From: Natrinema salsiterrestre | Lineage (GTDB): Archaea > Halobacteriota > Halobacteria > Halobacteriales > Natrialbaceae | Assembly (NCBI RefSeq): GCF_029502005.1 | Contig: NZ_JAMQOT010000007.1 | Coordinates: forward strand, 124,001 to 188,000 | Direction: 5' to 3' | Length of the DNA stretch: 64,000 nucleotides | Notes under the pieces: model-generated | Told to the model about the DNA's origin: nothing | The model's input: the letters and a program-made list of their open reading frames with translations, nothing else | The model's database searches: none | Shown here: positions 51,258 through 63,749 of the stretch, piece after piece | Numbering within the stretch: the stretch's first letter is position 1 | How the letters are laid out: every line of letters begins with the position of its first letter | Made by a program: the position numbers and the translations under genes

Positions 51258-52061
51258 ATGGCCAGTCTCAGGGACCTCGGGCTCTCGGAGTACGAGGCTC
51301 GAGCCTACCGATCGTTACTGAACACCGGCCCGACAACGGCCAAGGAACTTTCACGAGCGAGCGACGTTCCGATGGGGCGGATCTACGACGTGCTCAACAG
51401 TATCGAACAGTACAATCTGGTCCGGAGTCAGACCGCGAGCCGGCCGAAGAAGTACGTCGCCGTCGAGCCCTCGACGGCGCTCGATCGGCTGCTCGAGGAC
51501 AAGAAGCGCGAACTCGAGGAGAAGGCCGACCAGTACGAGTCGATCGTCGACGATCTGGCCGACGAGCTCGACGCGGCCGAGCCGGTCGAGGAACAGTTCT
51601 GGACCGCCGCCGTCGGTCCCGAGGAGACGATCGACCTCCTCCTGGAACGGCTCGCGGCCGCCGACCGCGATATCGTGATGGTCTCGTCCCATCCGTCCCC
51701 CCAGTGGGACATGCAGGCCGTCAGCGAGGAGATCAACGCCCAGCTCGAGGACGCCCTCGATCGGGGCGTCTCGATCGACCTGTTGATGACCCGCGAGATG
51801 GTCGCCTCGATGTCGGAGGAGGTGGGTCGACGGTACCGAGAGACCCTCCAACAGCGCGAGGACTTCGACGTCCGAACGCACGACGACGTGACGGGCTCGT
51901 TCAACATCATCGACGGCGTCGAAGTCTGCATTCAGGTTCCCAACCCGCTCTCTTCGGGCGAGGCCTTCGGTATGATCGACCTGAAGGATCCGGAGTTCGC
52001 GGCGAACGTCCACGAGGAGTTCGCCCCGCGGTGGACGGAAGCGGAGCCGCTCGAGTTCTAA
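51258..52061 (+). CDS. TrmB family transcriptional regulator, short form
   Basis: The 267-residue protein has an N-terminal winged helix with [38 protein letters not shown], a coiled-coil linker ([21 protein letters not shown]), and a C-terminal domain of the PLD-like type seen in many archaeal TrmB relatives, including [14 protein letters not shown] and [13 protein letters not shown]. It lacks the long sugar-binding domain of TrmB proper, so its ligand is unknown. It is tail-to-tail with mptA, overlapping it by 4 bases. Confidence 0.85.
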
Positions 52062-52984
52062 CGGTCGATTTCTTCCCGGAGCGTCCCCATTTCGACGATG
52101 CGCTCGGCGTGGGCGTTGTGCTGGTGGATCGACTCGTCGTTGGACTGGCTCATCGTGATCACCGCGTCGTCGGCCAGGTGATCGAACTCGTCGACGACGC
52201 CCTCGGCCAGCGCCCGCACGCAGTCCTCGACGAACTTCGCGTCGGCGTGGGCCTCGTAGGTCATGTGGTCCTCGTCGGGTCGCTTCGCGAGGTTGTAGAT
52301 CCGGGCGCTCATCGAATCCCGAGCGATGTCGATGATGTCGTTCAGGTCGACCGACGGATCGCCGTTGGCTTCGACGGTCAGCGTCGCGTGACCCCGCTGG
52401 GAGTGCCCCGGCTGCGGTACTTCCTCCAGGAACTCCGCGATCGTCTCCTCCTCGACGCCGAGGTCCTCGAGGGTCTGTTTCGCGCGGGACGTGGACATCC
52501 CCTGCGAGCACGGACAGACGGTCATCCCGGTGACCGTGGCACCGATCTCCTCGCGAGTCCCCTCGTCGGTCGCCGTCGCCGAGGCCACGATATCGACGGT
52601 GTGTTGCGTTTCCCGGTCGCTCGCGGGCGTCTGTTCGCGCCGCATGAACTCGGCCTCCATCGAGACCTCCGCCCGCGACGTGTAATCGTGTCGCTCGAGC
52701 AGCCGTTCGGCGGCCTCGCCGCAGACTTCCTCGACGCCGTAGGCCTCCTCGCGGGTCGCGTCCTCGAGGATCTCGTCGATGACCTCCATGTTGCGGCTCA
52801 TGTCCGCGCCCTTTCGCCACCCCGGGAGGTCGACGAAGACCTCGAACTCGGCGGTCAGGACGATCGGTCGCTTGCCCTCGCGGGCGATCTTGACGAGCTT
52901 GTCGACGCCGGTGACGCCGACCTGACTCAGGCCGACGGTCACGTCGGGGGACGTCGCCTGCACGTCCGGCAGCTGATGACTCAT
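52058..52984 (-). CDS. mptA: GTP cyclohydrolase MptA (GTP cyclohydrolase IV)
   Basis: The 308-residue protein has the MptA/FolE2 fold: [15 protein letters not shown] near the start, [21 protein letters not shown], the cysteine-rich [10 protein letters not shown] active-site segment, and [16 protein letters not shown] near the end. It converts GTP to a 7,8-dihydroneopterin cyclic phosphate, the first step of folate-type and archaeosine-related pterin synthesis in archaea, using a bound metal. The start MSHQLPD at 52984 is preferred. The gene ends within the last 4 bases of the convergent TrmB gene. Confidence 0.92.
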
Positions 52985-53083
52985 TGCCCGCATTCAGGGT
53001 AGGGTGCGATTCAACCTTTCGGAACCAGTAGTTACTGGCTCGACGTGCCGTGAGCCCGGGTACGGACTCGAGCGAGCCGTCGC

Positions 53084-53125
53084 TTCTTTAAGTGCCTCTG
53101 GTCTCAAGGTTGAGATATGACGGGA
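53084..53125 (+). repeat. TATA-bearing 42-bp repeat, copy 1 (diverged)
   Basis: TTCTTTAAGTGCCTCTGG and the bases after it match the two copies at 54949 and 55987 closely up to about 53110, then diverge, with a one-base insertion. TTTAAG (53087-53092) is the TATA-like part. It lies 136 bases ahead of the zinc-ribbon gene. Confidence 0.65.
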
Positions 53126-53219
53126 AGACGGTCGTTCTCCGGGATGCCGATTCGATAGTTGCACTACTACTCCTCTCAGCGGCGCTGACGTTCCGGCCAC
53201 GAGCGGTACGGCTCGAGTC

Positions 53220-53630
53220 ATGGCGGCAGCCACGCGAAATGACAGGGATAGGATTACGGTCGCCCCGTCCCAGTCCTTCGATACCGTGACTAGCGAGCGC
53301 GAGTCGCCGAACGACGACGAGACCCCGGACGGCACTGCTCCCTCCGCCACCGACGTGTGCGACGAAATGGAGCCGTTCGAACCCTACACCTCCGGTGAAC
53401 TGGCCGCGATTCTCGATATCCCGAAGCGGCTCGCCCGCACGCTCTTGAAGAGACTCACCGACGACGGACGGATCCGACGGAAGGAACTCGAGTCGGATCG
53501 CGCCGTCTGGATCCGGGAACCGCCGACACACGCGTGTCCGGACTGCGGCCGCGAGTTCGAGATCAGGTACTCCCATCCGATCTTCCAGGCGGTTCAGTTC
53601 TGTCCCGGCTGTGGCACGCGACTCGAGTGA
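53220..53630 (+). CDS. Winged-helix protein with C-terminal zinc ribbon
   Basis: The 136-residue protein ends in a zinc ribbon with CPDC and CPGC pairs about 22 residues apart. Ahead of it is a helix-turn-helix-like stretch (about residues 54-95, with YTSGELAAILDIPKRLARTLLKRL). The acidic first 50 residues have no features. A GTG at 53287 is an alternative start. Fusion of these two parts suggests a small transcription regulator, with an unknown target. Confidence 0.65.
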   Translation: MAAATRNDRDRITVAPSQSFDTVTSERESPNDDETPDGTAPSATDVCDEMEPFEPYTSGELAAILDIPKRLARTLLKRLTDDGRIRRKELESDRAVWIREPPTHACPDCGREFEIRYSHPIFQAVQFCPGCGTRLE

Positions 53631-53700
53631 CCTACACGGCGATCCGGTAACCGACACGGCGATCCGTTTCCCGGTCACCTAAGACCCCGGAGTGCCAGCG

Positions 53701-54846
53701 GTGAGTGTGCGAAGTTACACTATTACGGAGATCTGGGATATTCCGATTCGGATCAACACGTCGTTGCTGATTTTCCTCCCGATCCTCGCATGGCTCATCG
53801 GAAGCGGGCAGCAGATCGAACTGTACGCCGGGTTCATCGACGGACTCACCGGGACCGGATTCGACCTCTCCCGTCTCCTCGCGGGGACGACGCCGTGGCT
53901 CATCGGCATCACGGCAGCGGTCGGGCTGTTCGTGAGCGTCACGCTGCACGAACTGGGCCACTCGTGGGTCGCGCTGCGATACGACATCGAGATCGAGTCG
54001 ATCACCCTGTGGATCCTCGGCGGCATCGCGTCGCTGAAGACGCTGCCAAAGGAGTGGGACCGCGAGTTCTGGATCGCCATCGCCGGCCCCATCACGAGCG
54101 TTCTCGTGGCCGCCGGCTGTTACGTCGCCGTTCTCGTCGCGCCGGACTCCCTGCAGGTCACCCGGTTCGTCCTCGGGTATCTGGCCATCACGAACCTGAT
54201 CCTCGCGGGATTCAACCTCCTCCCCGCGTTCCCCATGGACGGCGGACGCATCTTCCGCGCGCTCCTGGCTCGCTCCCGTCCCTACGGGAGCGCGACGCGG
54301 ATCGCGGCGCGAGTCGGCGTCGGCTTCGCGTTCCTGTTCGCTATCGTCGGGATCCTCAACTTCCAGCTCATTCTCCTGCTCCTCGCCTTCTTCATCTACG
54401 GCGCGGCGACCACGGAGTCGCGAACCGTCCTCCTCGACGAACTGCTCGAGGGAATCACCGTCGGCGACATCATGACCCGGGATCCAGCGACAGTCTCCGC
54501 CGACACGACGATCGCGGCGTTCGGTGACCGGATGATCCGCGACCGTCAATCCGTTCACCTCGTCACGGACGGGACCGGGGCGGTCGTCGGCGTCGTCACG
54601 CTCGAGGATCTCCGGACGTCTCGAGGGGACGACCGGGGATCGACCCGCCTCGAAGACGTGATGCAGGACGTCCCGCGTATCGAATCGACTGCCGACGCCT
54701 TCGACACGCTCCCCGTCGTGAACCAGTCCGGGAACGGGAACGTACTCGTCGAGAAGGCCGGGGAGATCGTCGGTGTTCTCTCGCAATCCGATTACGCCCA
54801 CGCCATGACGGTTCGACGCGGCTTTCAGAGTTCGATCGGCGGGTAG
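53701..54846 (+). CDS. Site-2 protease family metalloprotease with CBS domains
   Basis: This protein of about 381 residues is an intramembrane metalloprotease of the M50 family: zinc-binding HELGHSW near residue 82, LLPAFPMDGGR as the second motif near residue 178, and about six hydrophobic segments. The C-terminal third holds two CBS repeats (TVGDIMTRDPATV and VLSQSDYAH), which in relatives bind adenylates and may tune activity. Possible starts are three GTG codons at 53692, 53701 and 53707; I use the middle one. It may cleave membrane-anchored regulators; the substrate is unknown. Confidence 0.85.
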   Translation: MSVRSYTITEIWDIPIRINTSLLIFLPILAWLIGSGQQIELYAGFIDGLTGTGFDLSRLLAGTTPWLIGITAAVGLFVSVTLHELGHSWVALRYDIEIESITLWILGGIASLKTLPKEWDREFWIAIAGPITSVLVAAGCYVAVLVAPDSLQVTRFVLGYLAITNLILAGFNLLPAFPMDGGRIFRALLARSRPYGSATRIAARVGVGFAFLFAIVGILNFQLILLLLAFFIYGAATTESRTVLLDELLEGITVGDIMTRDPATVSADTTIAAFGDRMIRDRQSVHLVTDGTGAVVGVVTLEDLRTSRGDDRGSTRLEDVMQDVPRIESTADAFDTLPVVNQSGNGNVLVEKAGEIVGVLSQSDYAHAMTVRRGFQSSIGG

Positions 54847-54948
54847 CGAACGCGTTCGAGGGTGCGACGGATCCGCGACACGGAGGGTCACCGGTTCGCG
54901 TATCGGCCGACTTCGGAACGGTCCCCTCGGCGGGCCCGGTTCCGATCG

Positions 54949-54990
54949 TTCTTTAAGTGTCTCTGGTCACAAGGTGAAGCTACGAAGGGC
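54949..54990 (+). repeat. TATA-bearing 42-bp repeat, copy 2
   Basis: This 42-bp stretch is identical to 55987-56028 at 40 positions. It has TTTAAG at 54952-54957 and then a conserved part ending GAAGGGC, and lies 55 bases before the nucleotidyltransferase ATG. Confidence 0.75.
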
Positions 54991-55044
54991 ATTCGGCACG
55001 CCGGTCTTCTCGCAGTTCCGTTTTCGACGACTCGAGCCACAACC

Positions 55045-55965
55045 ATGTCTCCCGTCCCGAATCACGTCCAGCGGAGCGTCGACGAGCACCTGACGGCGAT
55101 CGAACGCGAGTACGACGTCGCGGTCGTACTGGCGGTCGCCCGCGGGAGCCACGCCTGGGGCGCGGCGAGTCCTGACAGCGACTACGACGTCGGGTTCGTC
55201 TTCGTCCCGAGCGATCTGCGCCGGTACGCCCACCTCGAGGGACCGCCCGAAACTATCGTCGCGGACCGTGGCGAGCTCGAGTATCAGGGCTGGGACGTGC
55301 GGACGTTCGCAGGGCTGCTCGCGGATTCGAACGAGGGCGCGATCGATTTGCTGCGAAGTCCGATTCGCTATCGGGTGGCGTACGATCCCGCCGACCTCGC
55401 CGACTACCTCGAGCGGACCTACAACCCGATCGACCTGTATCACACGTGGCGCGGGATCGCGACGAACAACTACCGCACGTACGTCTCGCACCACCTGGTC
55501 CGAACCGACGACGAGACCGTCCCGATCGTCGACGCGGGCGAGGACACGTACACCGTCGAAACCGGCGACGGAACGACGACGGTGCCGGCCGACGACGACC
55601 GGTTCACCGAGACCCAGACGAAACCGACGGTGAAGCGAAACCTGACGATCTGTCGGGCCGCCATGTCGGCGTACTACCTCAAAACGACCGGCGAGAGCGG
55701 CGCACACGAGTTACCGGCCCTCGACTTCGAGGCGTTCCTGACCGAGCAAGCGCCCGCGGTCTTCGACGCCGAACGGATCGACCGCGCTCGCGAGTTGCTC
55801 GAGCGCAAGCGGGCGGGCGAGGGCGATGTCGACGTCGGCGACGCCGTGGGCCGCGAGTTCGCACACCCGCCACGAGAGATCGAGCCGGACGTGCACGCTC
55901 GAGCCGGGCCCGATACCGAACGGCTGGACGGATACATCGACGAGATGCTCCGAGCCGTCCGCTAG
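55045..55965 (+). CDS. Nucleotidyltransferase domain protein (DNA polymerase beta superfamily, YcgL type)
   Basis: The 306-residue protein has a nucleotidyltransferase motif near its start: VARGSHAWGAASPDSDYDVGFVFVP, with the Gly-Ser and the two acidic residues D-x-D. The next 180 residues include YHTWRGIATNNYRTYV and a helical tail. It resembles predicted nucleotidyltransferases of COG3541 (YcgL), whose substrate is unknown. Its transcript may begin in the 42-bp repeat 55 bases upstream, giving a short leader. Confidence 0.75.
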   Translation: MSPVPNHVQRSVDEHLTAIEREYDVAVVLAVARGSHAWGAASPDSDYDVGFVFVPSDLRRYAHLEGPPETIVADRGELEYQGWDVRTFAGLLADSNEGAIDLLRSPIRYRVAYDPADLADYLERTYNPIDLYHTWRGIATNNYRTYVSHHLVRTDDETVPIVDAGEDTYTVETGDGTTTVPADDDRFTETQTKPTVKRNLTICRAAMSAYYLKTTGESGAHELPALDFEAFLTEQAPAVFDAERIDRARELLERKRAGEGDVDVGDAVGREFAHPPREIEPDVHARAGPDTERLDGYIDEMLRAVR

Positions 55966-55986
55966 CAGCGTCCGCTCGCCGATCCA

Positions 55987-56028
55987 TTCTTTAAGTACCT
56001 CTGGTCACAAGGTGAAGCTACGAAGGGC
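55987..56028 (+). repeat. TATA-bearing 42-bp repeat, copy 3
   Basis: This copy is 40/42 identical to copy 2, with TTTAAG at 55990-55995. It lies 189 bases before the RNA polymerase epsilon-type gene, leaving a leader of roughly 190 bases if used as its promoter. Confidence 0.75.
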
Positions 56029-56216
56029 TTTTCGCGGAGTGGTTCGTCCGGCACCGGAGCGACCGCGATGCACCGGTGTCGATCGTTACGCACCGGAAAT
56101 CGGCGATCGTTCCGGATCACGCAGTAGGATAACCTATCAGAGCGGCTGTCTGTCCGGTTTCACGGATCGCTGTGCGGAGCGAGCCTTTTTCACTCTCCCC
56201 CTCTCAGCGACAACTG

Positions 56217-56984
56217 ATGCAAGACGACGGTGCCGATCCAGGTCCAGCGTCCGAGCGAGCGTCGGCCGTCGGAGACGGTGTCGAACCCGATTTCGACGGT
56301 GAGCGCCATCTCGAGACCCGACCCGGGTCCGGGTCGCTCTCGCGGGCGGACGTCCAGCGCGATTCGACGGTCCGCCGATGGGGCGTCGTCACGCCGAGTG
56401 CGACGGTCATCGGTCGCGCGGACTCGCCCGAGGCGGACCTCTCCGAGAGCGTGCGCCGCCTCCACGACGAACAGCACGCGGCGACGCCCGGCTACAGCGA
56501 GCGCGCCCACCACCTCGACCGGCTCCGAACGACGCAGGCGCTGTGTAACGCCCTCGAGGTGACGCCGTGGCAGCGAGACCTCGCGCTGGGGGTCATGGAC
56601 GAGATCGACCTCACCGAGTTCGGCAGCCAGCGGGCGATCCCGAAGGTCGCGCTGGTGGTGATCCGCCACGTCGTCGACGTCGACCGCCAGCAGTACTTCG
56701 GGCTGGACGATATCGACGCACAGGAGCTCTCGGCCGACCGGATGGAGGAACTGTTCGCCCAGTATCGGGCCCACGACATCACCGACGAGGAGGGGTTCAA
56801 ACGACTCGCGGCCGAGTACGGACTCGATACGACGAGTCTGAATCGGCTTCGTCGCGTCCTGAAGGCCCAACTCGAGGACGACCTGCCGGCCTACGGGCGG
56901 AACCCGTATCGGGACCCGAACCTCCCGGACGTGACCGAGTCGAACGCCGAGGCCGCGGAGACGGCTGCCGGAACCGAGAGTTAA
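56217..56984 (+). CDS. DNA-directed RNA polymerase subunit epsilon (haloarchaeal type)
   Basis: The 255-residue protein has a conserved core from VRRWGVVTPSATVIGR through HDEQHAATPGYSERAHHLDRLRTTQALCNALEVTPWQRDLALGVMDEIDL to SQRAIPKVALVVIRHVVDVDR. I recognise this as the haloarchaeal protein annotated as RNA polymerase subunit epsilon; the helical core resembles a cyclin-like fold, but I have no evidence here for its role. The first 50 residues are acidic and variable. The start at 56217 fits the common length. Confidence 0.7.
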   Translation: MQDDGADPGPASERASAVGDGVEPDFDGERHLETRPGSGSLSRADVQRDSTVRRWGVVTPSATVIGRADSPEADLSESVRRLHDEQHAATPGYSERAHHLDRLRTTQALCNALEVTPWQRDLALGVMDEIDLTEFGSQRAIPKVALVVIRHVVDVDRQQYFGLDDIDAQELSADRMEELFAQYRAHDITDEEGFKRLAAEYGLDTTSLNRLRRVLKAQLEDDLPAYGRNPYRDPNLPDVTESNAEAAETAAGTES

Positions 56985-57071
56985 CGACCGGCCGCCGACC
57001 GGATCCACACCTCGTCACGAGTCGACTGCCGGTGACCGGCGACTTTTCCGTCGGTGGCTCCTACCGGAGCT

Positions 57072-57725
57072 ATGGCTGACGCTGACACCGGATCCACGCC
57101 GTCGACGACCGATCGCATCGAAATTTACGCCGACTACGTCTGCCCGTTCTGTTACCTCGGCACGCGCTCGCTCGAGCAGTACCGCGAGGGACGCGACGAG
57201 CCGCTGGAGGTCGACTGGCACCCCTTCGATCTGCGCAGCGGGAAGCGGAACGCGGACGGCTCGATCGATCACGACGTCGACGACGGCAAGGGCGAGGACT
57301 ACTACGAGCAGGCGAGACAGAACGTCCGCCGGCTCCAGGAGGAGTACGGCGTGGAGATGGCACAGGAGATCGCGACCGACGTCGACTCGTTGAACGCGCA
57401 GGTCGCCTCGTGGTACGTCAAGCAGGAATACCCCGAGCGGTGGGCGGAATTCGACGAGTCGATCTACACGGCGCTCTGGCAGGACGGCCGCGACATCGGC
57501 GACGTCGACGTACTGGCCGACCTCGCGGCGGACGCCGAGCTCCCCGTCGAGGAGATCCGCGACGCGATCGCGGACGACGGCATCCGAGCGGAACTCGAGG
57601 ACAGGTTCGCCGAGGCCCAGCAGAAGGGGATCACCGGCGTGCCGACGTTCGTCTCCGACGGCCACGCCGCCCGGGGATCGGTCCCGCCGGAACACCTCGA
57701 GCGACTCGTCGAGGGCGATCGGTAG
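57072..57725 (+). CDS. DsbA family oxidoreductase (FrnE type)
   Basis: The 217-residue protein has the thioredoxin-like DsbA layout: IEIYADYVCPFCYLGTRSLEQY near the start with a CPFC active-site pair near residue 26, a helical insertion, and GITGVPTFVSDGH carrying the cis-proline loop. There is no signal peptide, so it acts in the cytoplasm, as FrnE-type members do, in thiol-disulfide exchange. It is convergent with the NAD kinase gene. Confidence 0.9.
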   Translation: MADADTGSTPSTTDRIEIYADYVCPFCYLGTRSLEQYREGRDEPLEVDWHPFDLRSGKRNADGSIDHDVDDGKGEDYYEQARQNVRRLQEEYGVEMAQEIATDVDSLNAQVASWYVKQEYPERWAEFDESIYTALWQDGRDIGDVDVLADLAADAELPVEEIRDAIADDGIRAELEDRFAEAQQKGITGVPTFVSDGHAARGSVPPEHLERLVEGDR

Positions 57726-57749
57726 GGATCGGTCGAGGATCTGAACGGC

Positions 57750-58586
57750 TTATTCGAGTTTGTCGAGCCCGTCGAAGAAGTTCGCCTGCGGGCCGACGAG
57801 CCGGACCGGCTCCGCCGCGAGCGAGACGGAGATCGTCGCGGGCAGTTCGAGTCGCTGTCGATTGCGTCCGTCGCTGATCGCGTAGCCGGTCTCGGCACCG
57901 GAGACGGTGAGGACGAGTTCGGTATCGGGCTCGACGACCAGCGGCGGCATCGAGTCGGTCGCGGCCATCTGCGTGACGACGAGCGCCTCGGCGGCGGGAT
58001 GAACCAGCGGCCCGCCTTCGCTCAAGTTGTAGGCGGTCGAGCCCGTCGGCGTGGCGACGAGAACGCCGTCCGCGTGGCTCTCGACGTATTGTTGTCCGTC
58101 GGCCTGCACCTCGATAGTCGCGCCGCCGCCGTTTCCCCGTCGCGGCCCGTGAACGACGACCTCGTTGAGAGCCGGCTCGAGCGTCCAGTCCGCGTCGACG
58201 CCGGTCGCTCGCAGCCGCGACAGTTCGCGTTCCGGCACCGCTCCCGTTTCGTCGAGTTCGGCCGCGAGACCGGTGACGACGCCGAGCGCGTCGGCGGGTG
58301 CGACGGCGTTGAGAAAGCCGACTTCGCCGAGATTGATCCCGAGGATCGGGGTCGATCCGACTTCTCGGGCGACAAACAACAGCGTTCCGTCGCCGCCGAT
58401 ACTCACGACGAGATCCCGACCCGCCATCGCCGCGACCGGGACGGCGGTCGCGTCGATCGCACCGCCGGTCGACTCGTCGACGACGACACTCGCTCCGTCG
58501 CGCTCGAGGGCCTCCACGAGGTCGACGGCCAGCGCCTGTGCATGCTCGTTGTCACGTTGGGCGACGATTCCGACGGCGACGTCCAT
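57750..58586 (-). CDS. nadK: NAD kinase
   Basis: The 278-residue protein has the two NAD kinase signatures: SIGGDGTLLFVAR at about residues 62-74 with the catalytic Asp, and GVLVATPTGSTAYNLSEGGP near residue 190. It phosphorylates NAD at the 2' position of the adenosine ribose to give NADP, using ATP or polyphosphate. Its length is normal. It is divergent from the KaiC-like gene over a structured spacer. Confidence 0.92.
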   Translation of the reverse strand: MDVAVGIVAQRDNEHAQALAVDLVEALERDGASVVVDESTGGAIDATAVPVAAMAGRDLVVSIGGDGTLLFVAREVGSTPILGINLGEVGFLNAVAPADALGVVTGLAAELDETGAVPERELSRLRATGVDADWTLEPALNEVVVHGPRRGNGGGATIEVQADGQQYVESHADGVLVATPTGSTAYNLSEGGPLVHPAAEALVVTQMAATDSMPPLVVEPDTELVLTVSGAETGYAISDGRNRQRLELPATISVSLAAEPVRLVGPQANFFDGLDKLE

Positions 58587-62783: not shown

Positions 62784-63749
62784 ATGGCAAGCCCCACCCG
62801 TCAACGCGAGCGCGATCCTGAAACGACAGAAAAAACGCAGGAACCGGAGCGCGAACGGGTGTGTGACGAGTGTGACGGGGGAACGCTCGTCAAGAGCGAG
62901 GATCAGGGGGAACTCGTCTGCGATCAGTGCGGTCTCATCGTCGAGGGAACGAACATCGACCACGGCCCGGAATGGCGCGCGTTCAACCACTCGGAACGGC
63001 AGAACAAGTCACGCGTCGGCGCGCCGACGACGCAGACGATGCACGACAAGGGCCTGACGACCTCCATCGACTGGAAGAATCAGGACGCCTACGGCCGATC
63101 GATCTCCTCGGACAAACGCAATCAGATGCGCCGCCTGCGGAAGTGGCAGGAACGGATCCGTACCAAAGACGCCGGCGAACGGAACCTCCAGTTCGCTCTC
63201 TCGGAAACCGACCGGATGGCCTCCTCGCTTGCGATCCCCCGATCCGTCCGGGAAGTCGCCTGCGTCATCTACCGGCGCGCACTCGACGAGGACCTCATCC
63301 GCGGCCGCTCCATCGAGGGGGTCGCGACCAGCACGCTCTACGCCGCCTGCCGCATGGAAGGCATCCCCCGCTCGCTCGAGGAAGTCGCCGCCGTCTCCCG
63401 CGTCGAGCGCAAGGAGATCGGCCGCACCTACCGCTACGTCGCCCAGGAACTCAACCTCGAGATGGAGCCGGTCAACCCGAAGAAGTACGTGCCGCGGTTT
63501 TGCTCGGAACTCGAGCTCTCCGAAGAGGTGCAGGTGAAAGCGAACGAGATCATCGACACGACGACCGAGAAGGGGCTTCTCTCGGGCAAGTCGCCGACCG
63601 GCTACGCCGCGGCCGCGATCTACGCCGCCTCGCTGCTCTGTAACGAGAAGAAGACCCAGCGCGAGGTTTCGGACGTCGCGCAGGTGACCGAGGTAACGAT
63701 CCGGAACCGGTATCAGGAGCAGATCGAAGCGATGGGCATTCACGAGTAA
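62784..63749 (+). CDS. tfb: Transcription initiation factor IIB (TFB)
   Basis: The 321-residue protein has a zinc ribbon (about residues 29-52, CDEC and CDQC), a B-reader with [17 protein letters not shown], and two cyclin-like repeats, the first with [22 protein letters not shown] and the second with [23 protein letters not shown]. It bridges TBP-bound promoters and RNA polymerase. Haloarchaea usually have several TFBs; this is one of them. The start at 62784 (MASPTRQ) fits the TATA spacing. Confidence 0.95.

Follow-up and report, generated by a model that had tools for sequence, protein, structure and literature searches.

A repeated TATA-bearing element that accompanies the RNA polymerase epsilon gene of haloarchaea may represent a distinct promoter class for very short RNAs

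In the 64,000-nucleotide stretch of Natrinema salsiterrestre DNA analysed here (the window), a short TATA-bearing element is repeated ahead of plus-strand genes. Judged by its sequence, this repeat may constitute a distinct haloarchaeal promoter class for very short, mostly non-coding RNAs that are probably acted on by the RNA polymerase subunit epsilon, a reading to which we assign a probability of about 0.5. The constant partner of the element is rpoeps, the gene for the epsilon homologue, and neither the zinc-ribbon gene nor the nucleotidyltransferase gene that follow two of the copies; these are incidental neighbours.

The sequence-only reading had placed copies of the repeat at 53084, 54949 and 55987, and all three are present. 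By direct reading the copies at 54949 and 55987 are identical at 40 of 42 positions, and in a repeat search over 45 nt the copies at 55987 and 53084 matched that at 54949 with 93% and 78% identity, respectively. The 19-mer TCTGGTCACAAGGTGAAGC occurs twice in the window as compared with a mean of 0.01 in shuffled sequences. The copy at 53084, which had been taken to diverge after about 27 bases, is not decayed, its downstream part, ATGACGGGAAGACGGTCGTTCTC, representing a second common subclass of the element (AyGACGGG). A genome-wide search, as the same reading had suggested, yielded five copies, three of them in the window; the other two lie ahead of a ribose-phosphate pyrophosphokinase gene (prs) and a GNAT acetyltransferase gene (Pfam assignments).

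The repeat consists of a core of about 38 bp that comprises the TATA box TTTAAGT (positions 1-7), the 14-bp block TCTGGTCACAAGGT (11-24) and AGmTAyGAmGGG (27-38). In a set of 203 distinct copies, drawn from the loci collected at that stage, the core was near-invariant at positions 1-7 and 11-38 save for a few two-letter positions, and its flanks were near random except for the C-rich positions -9, -8 and 0. Position 35 was C in 58% of these copies, which form the AyGAC subclass. TTTAAGT fits a TATA box and lies about 27 bp 5' of the predicted start, A31. The 14-bp block sits between the two, and its adenines at positions 20 (98%) and 21 (99%) occupy -11/-10 relative to this start, which fits a WW element. 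This block is also written as TCTGGTCACAAGG; other families have the version TTCTsGynACAAnG, with TTCTGGCGACAAGG, TTCTCGTGACAAGG or TTCTGGTTACAAGG as variants. A CGAAA BRE was not conserved 5' of the TATA box, where A reached at most 24% at positions -10 to 0 in the 203 copies. The predicted transcript begins near A31 with AyGAmGG, followed by a T-rich motif (TTCT/TTTTC) between about +10 and +22 and by AGC-N4-GC at about +33 to +48. The original notion, in which a TATA promoter continues into a conserved segment that might be a leader or a small RNA, stood, with transcription as the predicted part of it. A TCAC-N3-GTGA palindrome was considered as an operator and dismissed, one half being lost in many GGTAGAG copies.

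All three copies in the window lie on the plus strand, with TTTAAGT boxes beginning at 53087, 54952 and 55990. The core of copy 1, TTTAAGTGCCTCTGGTCTCAAGGTTGAGATATGACGGG, spans 53087-53124 and belongs to the AyGAC subclass; its start is predicted at A53117, judging by the distance from the TATA box and by the AA at -11/-10, and conserved motifs run to about 53165. It is followed by the gene for a small zinc-ribbon protein (53220-53630, +; start codon uncertain) with sub-threshold Pfam and NCBIfam matches only. Copy 2 (core 54952-54989, predicted start A54982) precedes a gene for an RNA-repair nucleotidyltransferase of the RlaP family (55045-55965, +; PF10127, Pfam E 5e-30), to which it would give a leader of 63 nt. 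The rpoeps-proximal copy 3 (core 55990-56027) has its predicted start at A56020, 197 nt 5' of the ATG of rpoeps (56217-56984, +; identified through annotated plasmid homologues). Its predicted short RNA would extend from 56020 to 56075 (+) if the 3' end is set where conservation fades, at about +50. A TATA-like box of rpoeps itself, CCTTTTTCA, is located at 56186-56190 (+), about 28 nt 5' of the ATG, and would represent a leaderless promoter apart from copy 3; similar boxes precede rpoeps in other families, and the same box follows the copies in Natrialbaceae.

Conservation in related genomes, on which the sequence-only reading had staked its proposal, was pronounced in surveys of genus, family and order. 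Pattern searches with mismatches found copies in 29 of 29 genomes of the genus and in 107 of 121 genomes of the family (26 of 29 genera), and at a strict cut-off of three mismatches over a longer pattern 96 of 293 genomes of the order were positive. The reversed pattern gave zero matches in every genome listed in the three surveys. Tandem copies are frequent: we counted 186 spacings below 400 bp between co-oriented neighbours, the commonest bins being 110-140 bp. Placement of all copies on one strand is seen in several genomes of the genus and not in the family and order surveys, and its reading as a replication or segregation mark was rejected. Plasmids of Halomontanus rarus and a relative also bear the element; several plasmids from one strain have a copy each, which on two of them lies near a ParA gene. 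Searches of the open literature listed no entry naming the element.

The association with rpoeps is the most consistent feature of this distribution. Fifty-five of the 60 rpoeps loci examined carry the element, which lies 5' of rpoeps on the same strand in 51; at 16 loci there are also convergent copies at the 3' side of the gene. At 30 of those loci, 71 copies were detected with up to five substitutions, compared with none in ten shuffles. Among the named rpoeps loci of Natrialbaceae, 37 of 41 carry copies, 147 in total and all co-oriented with rpoeps. Outside the family, the strict element and rpoeps were both present in 33 of 164 genomes; 30 had rpoeps only, one had the element only and 100 had neither, four weak, partial rpoeps matches being scored as absent. 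The element thus occurs in 33 of 63 genomes with rpoeps versus one of 101 without it (Fisher 5e-16, a value that is overstated because related genomes share ancestry and are not independent). In the sole element-bearing genome without rpoeps, the contig ends about 290 bp past the last element. The strict pattern was missed in 30 of the 63 rpoeps-containing genomes, and relaxed copies are present in most of the subset for which the rpoeps locus was retrieved. In the families f4 and f5, rpoeps is present in all six genomes that were strict-positive in the order survey (five of g61, plus G323). In f6, a strict element lies no more than 170 bp from 12 of 13 rpoeps genes and 1165 bp from the thirteenth; the element accompanies diverged rpoeps paralogues there, and four f6 genomes (G180, G194, G208 and G218) have several paralogues each, nearly all with the element close by. 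In Halorussus halophilus and Halococcus dombrowskii, rpoeps and the element are located together on named plasmids. The rpoeps on a plasmid of Halocatena salina has no element nearby at up to six substitutions, and elements are found elsewhere on the plasmids of this organism. No recognisable element was seen at five of the 60 loci (L228, L232, L233, L234 and L236) and no copy at four of the 41 named ones (L193, L198, L199 and L200), for which a relaxed search brought no rescue; L198 retains a piece of the transcribed block and the sequence of L200 spans only about 280 bp upstream.

RNA polymerase prepared from halobacteria has long been known to contain epsilon. Section 3.8 of a review (PMC8305020) cites earlier work in which polymerase with epsilon (OE_1279R), unlike polymerase lacking it, is efficient in transcribing native templates, and the review calls the relevance of the subunit 'enigmatic'. 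Our literature search listings contained no cognate promoter or target of epsilon. Homologues of the protein encoded at 56217-56984 are annotated on named plasmids as 'DNA-directed RNA polymerase subunit epsilon'; the four that span the larger part of the protein share 58-61% identity with it. The product itself has no Pfam or NCBIfam match. An AlphaFold model built from an alignment of 52 sequences contains a confident helical domain at about residues 91-222, mostly with pLDDT above 90. With VIA, the top 16 rows for this domain were all of the TFIIB/Brf family (Z 9.6-10.3 over 93-99 residues) and cyclins reached Z 9.5, values that by the tool's own warning are not decisive for helical domains; Foldseek matches were weak (E at least 0.07). 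Homology of epsilon to TFB found no support at the sequence level: TFIIB was absent among the 25 of 28 Pfam families listed for the 52 epsilon members at E up to 1, and when hhalign was used to compare epsilon with 20 TFB repeats from this genome, the probability was 1%. An N-terminal zinc ribbon was not found in the 52-sequence alignment, which has one nearly invariant cysteine only. Since sequence profiles find nothing and the hhalign probability is 1%, 'TFB-shaped' is a lead and not a statement of membership. A TFB gene is situated near the end of the window (63183-63728, +).

We propose that epsilon, encoded next door, may help the polymerase to start at these promoters, a step suggested by association, and that the 14-bp block between TATA box and start could stand in for the missing BRE. 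Together with rpoeps, the surrounding arrays might form an autoregulatory or read-out unit, and at the RlaP gene the short transcript would have been turned into the leader of a protein gene. In a more specific form, which we hold tentatively and consider possible rather than probable, epsilon would be a one-repeat, TFB-shaped specificity factor of halophilic archaea and the repeat its cognate promoter, in which the TATA box is joined by a downstream recognition block that takes the place of the BRE and which would produce RNAs of about 40-80 nt arrayed around the epsilon gene. This would make epsilon the archaeal equivalent of an alternative initiation factor and give it an RNA family of its own.

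By analogy with 6S RNA, the transcript could instead be the working part, as a multicopy small RNA with epsilon itself or the epsilon-containing polymerase as its binding partner. Several properties of the putatively transcribed part point in this direction. Position-bound motifs are present (TTCT at 46-52, or 48-53 if judged by its peak, and AGCG at 60-78), and AGC-N4-GC was found in 140 of 360 copies as compared with 49 copies when the loop is set to 3 nt and 19 when it is set to 5 nt. Base 35 tends to be matched by the 3' arm, ACGAA occurring with TTCG in 72 of 116 copies and ACGAC with GTCG in 63 of 154, and at least four pairs can form in 160 of 203 copies versus at most 128 in 300 dealt-out controls. 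An 8-bp hairpin at positions 36-80 exists in 13 of 391 copies versus 3 and 4 in control windows, and several of these hairpins are followed by T runs. However, the pairing is not clean because ACGAC copies take CTCG as often as GTCG (68 versus 63), and 6-bp hairpins are not enriched (28 versus 34 and 52 in control windows). A globally structured RNA was set aside: in 150 copies sampled from the 360, the mean folding z against shuffles was about 0, and RNAalifold returned no consensus structure. Rfam gave no match at E up to 5 for positions 52000-58000 of the window. Because the transcribed part folds no more stably than shuffled sequences, a structured RNA is unsupported, and the promoter is therefore the likelier site of function; we regard a working RNA of the 6S kind as unlikely. 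A leaderless micro-ORF starting from the ATG of the AyGAC subclass was also discarded, as T is found at position 32 in 28% of copies and the frame is not kept. A few diverged copies have a strong hairpin and a T run close behind the predicted start. In G323 three copies (L238-L240) have a perfect hairpin of at least 8 bp right past the predicted start, two of them followed by T runs, and resemble promoter-proximal terminators; on a Halorussus vallis plasmid a terminator-like arrangement, GTGCGCCCG...CGGGCGCAC and then AATTTTT, directly follows the predicted start near 2408 (-).

Alternatively, the copies could be distal promoters that serve in tandem the genes following them (rpoeps, RlaP), in the manner of the multi-promoter arrays of rRNA operons. 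The same-strand upstream copies at 51 of 60 rpoeps loci accord with this, and between copy 2 and the ATG at 55045 no other TATA-like box was noticed by eye, leaving the RlaP gene without another obvious promoter. The leader of this gene looks element-derived, ending in AGC-CACA-ACC before the ATG, and the gene is patchily distributed. Elsewhere, too, some copies precede same-strand genes: on annotated plasmids three do so at a distance of 150-290 bp, and a scan of ten downstream proteins with Pfam identified a same-strand serS in one case (L251). Against this, inspection by eye shows a separate TATA-like box about 28 bp 5' of the ATG of rpoeps, of prs and of the GNAT gene, and at 16 loci copies 3' of rpoeps are convergent with it. 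We inspected what follows 20 copies that lay either at a distance from rpoeps or in mixed settings, and nine of them faced a long reading frame on the opposite strand that ended 86-142 bp past the TATA start. The Pfam scan confirmed six convergent genes (L252, L096, L102, L016, L017 and L240); three of the ten proteins (L242, L246 and L245) had no Pfam match. Five copies on annotated plasmids likewise face a convergent gene, one further plasmid copy lies near the record end, and in none of 13 plasmid records does the best match overlap an annotated gene, the gene table being incomplete. Some copies are thus directed into the 3' end of a gene on the opposite strand, which excludes them as promoters of protein genes; copies with convergent genes occupy intergenic sites independent of a downstream ORF, with their own predicted promoter. 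The view in which each copy works for the plus-strand gene that follows it consequently fails as a general rule and survives for the RlaP gene, which alone seems to use its copy. The rpoeps-proximal copy could still read through into rpoeps. Overall, we consider distal promoters an improbable account of the family. RlaP as a functional partner was rejected because its gene is too rare, being present in 12 of 117 genomes of the order as against an element at 55 of 60 rpoeps loci.

An ordinary regulon of an unlinked factor, or of one of the roughly 15 TFBs, with rpoeps as a frequent member or a neighbour by descent, appears more doubtful still. Any factor might use the block as its operator, the genome itself has 29 TFIIB-repeat matches, and copies are also found near prs, GNAT, serS and other genes. 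On the other hand, genomes lacking rpoeps lack the element save for the one contig-end case, and in f6 the element follows diverged rpoeps paralogues. A mobile or neutral tandem repeat, as tandem arrays and plasmid copies might suggest, is hardly credible, given that the core stays fixed while the spacers diverge, that families with different spacers share the same grammar, that no terminal repeats were noticed around the copies by eye and that viral contigs held no exact match and phage records no match, on which grounds a viral origin was also rejected.

Bacterial 6S RNA is a small RNA tied to RNA polymerase, and a shared role is possible; the element differs in being archaeal and multicopy in tandem, with no stable fold detected, the comparison having been made through Rfam on the window stretch. 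The tandem rRNA promoters of halobacteria are repeated about 100 bp apart and conserve the sequence between TATA box and start. The element is similar in spacing and in its conserved TATA-to-start sequence and, as far as seen, is not located at rRNA operons; no archaeal 16S rRNA gene that could serve for comparison was found in the 99.98% complete assembly, probably owing to an assembly gap. In the predicted model, the epsilon domain (91-222) aligns with the cyclin repeats of the TFIIB family at Z about 10; epsilon differs from TFB/TFIIB in having one repeat only, with neither a Pfam TFIIB nor a profile-profile match. The haloarchaeal core promoter as described in PMC4983044 has a 'WW' element at -10 and a CGAAA BRE upstream. 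The element resembles it in the TATA box about 27 bp 5' of the predicted start and in the AA at -11/-10, and departs from it in lacking a conserved CGAAA BRE and in its near-invariant 14-bp block, which does not figure in that description. The neighbouring gene is the annotated homologue of haloarchaeal epsilon OE_1279R as presented in PMC8305020. A promoter family that is all but confined to genomes with epsilon, and that lies next to the epsilon gene in several families, would provide a concrete template for the old question of what epsilon does.
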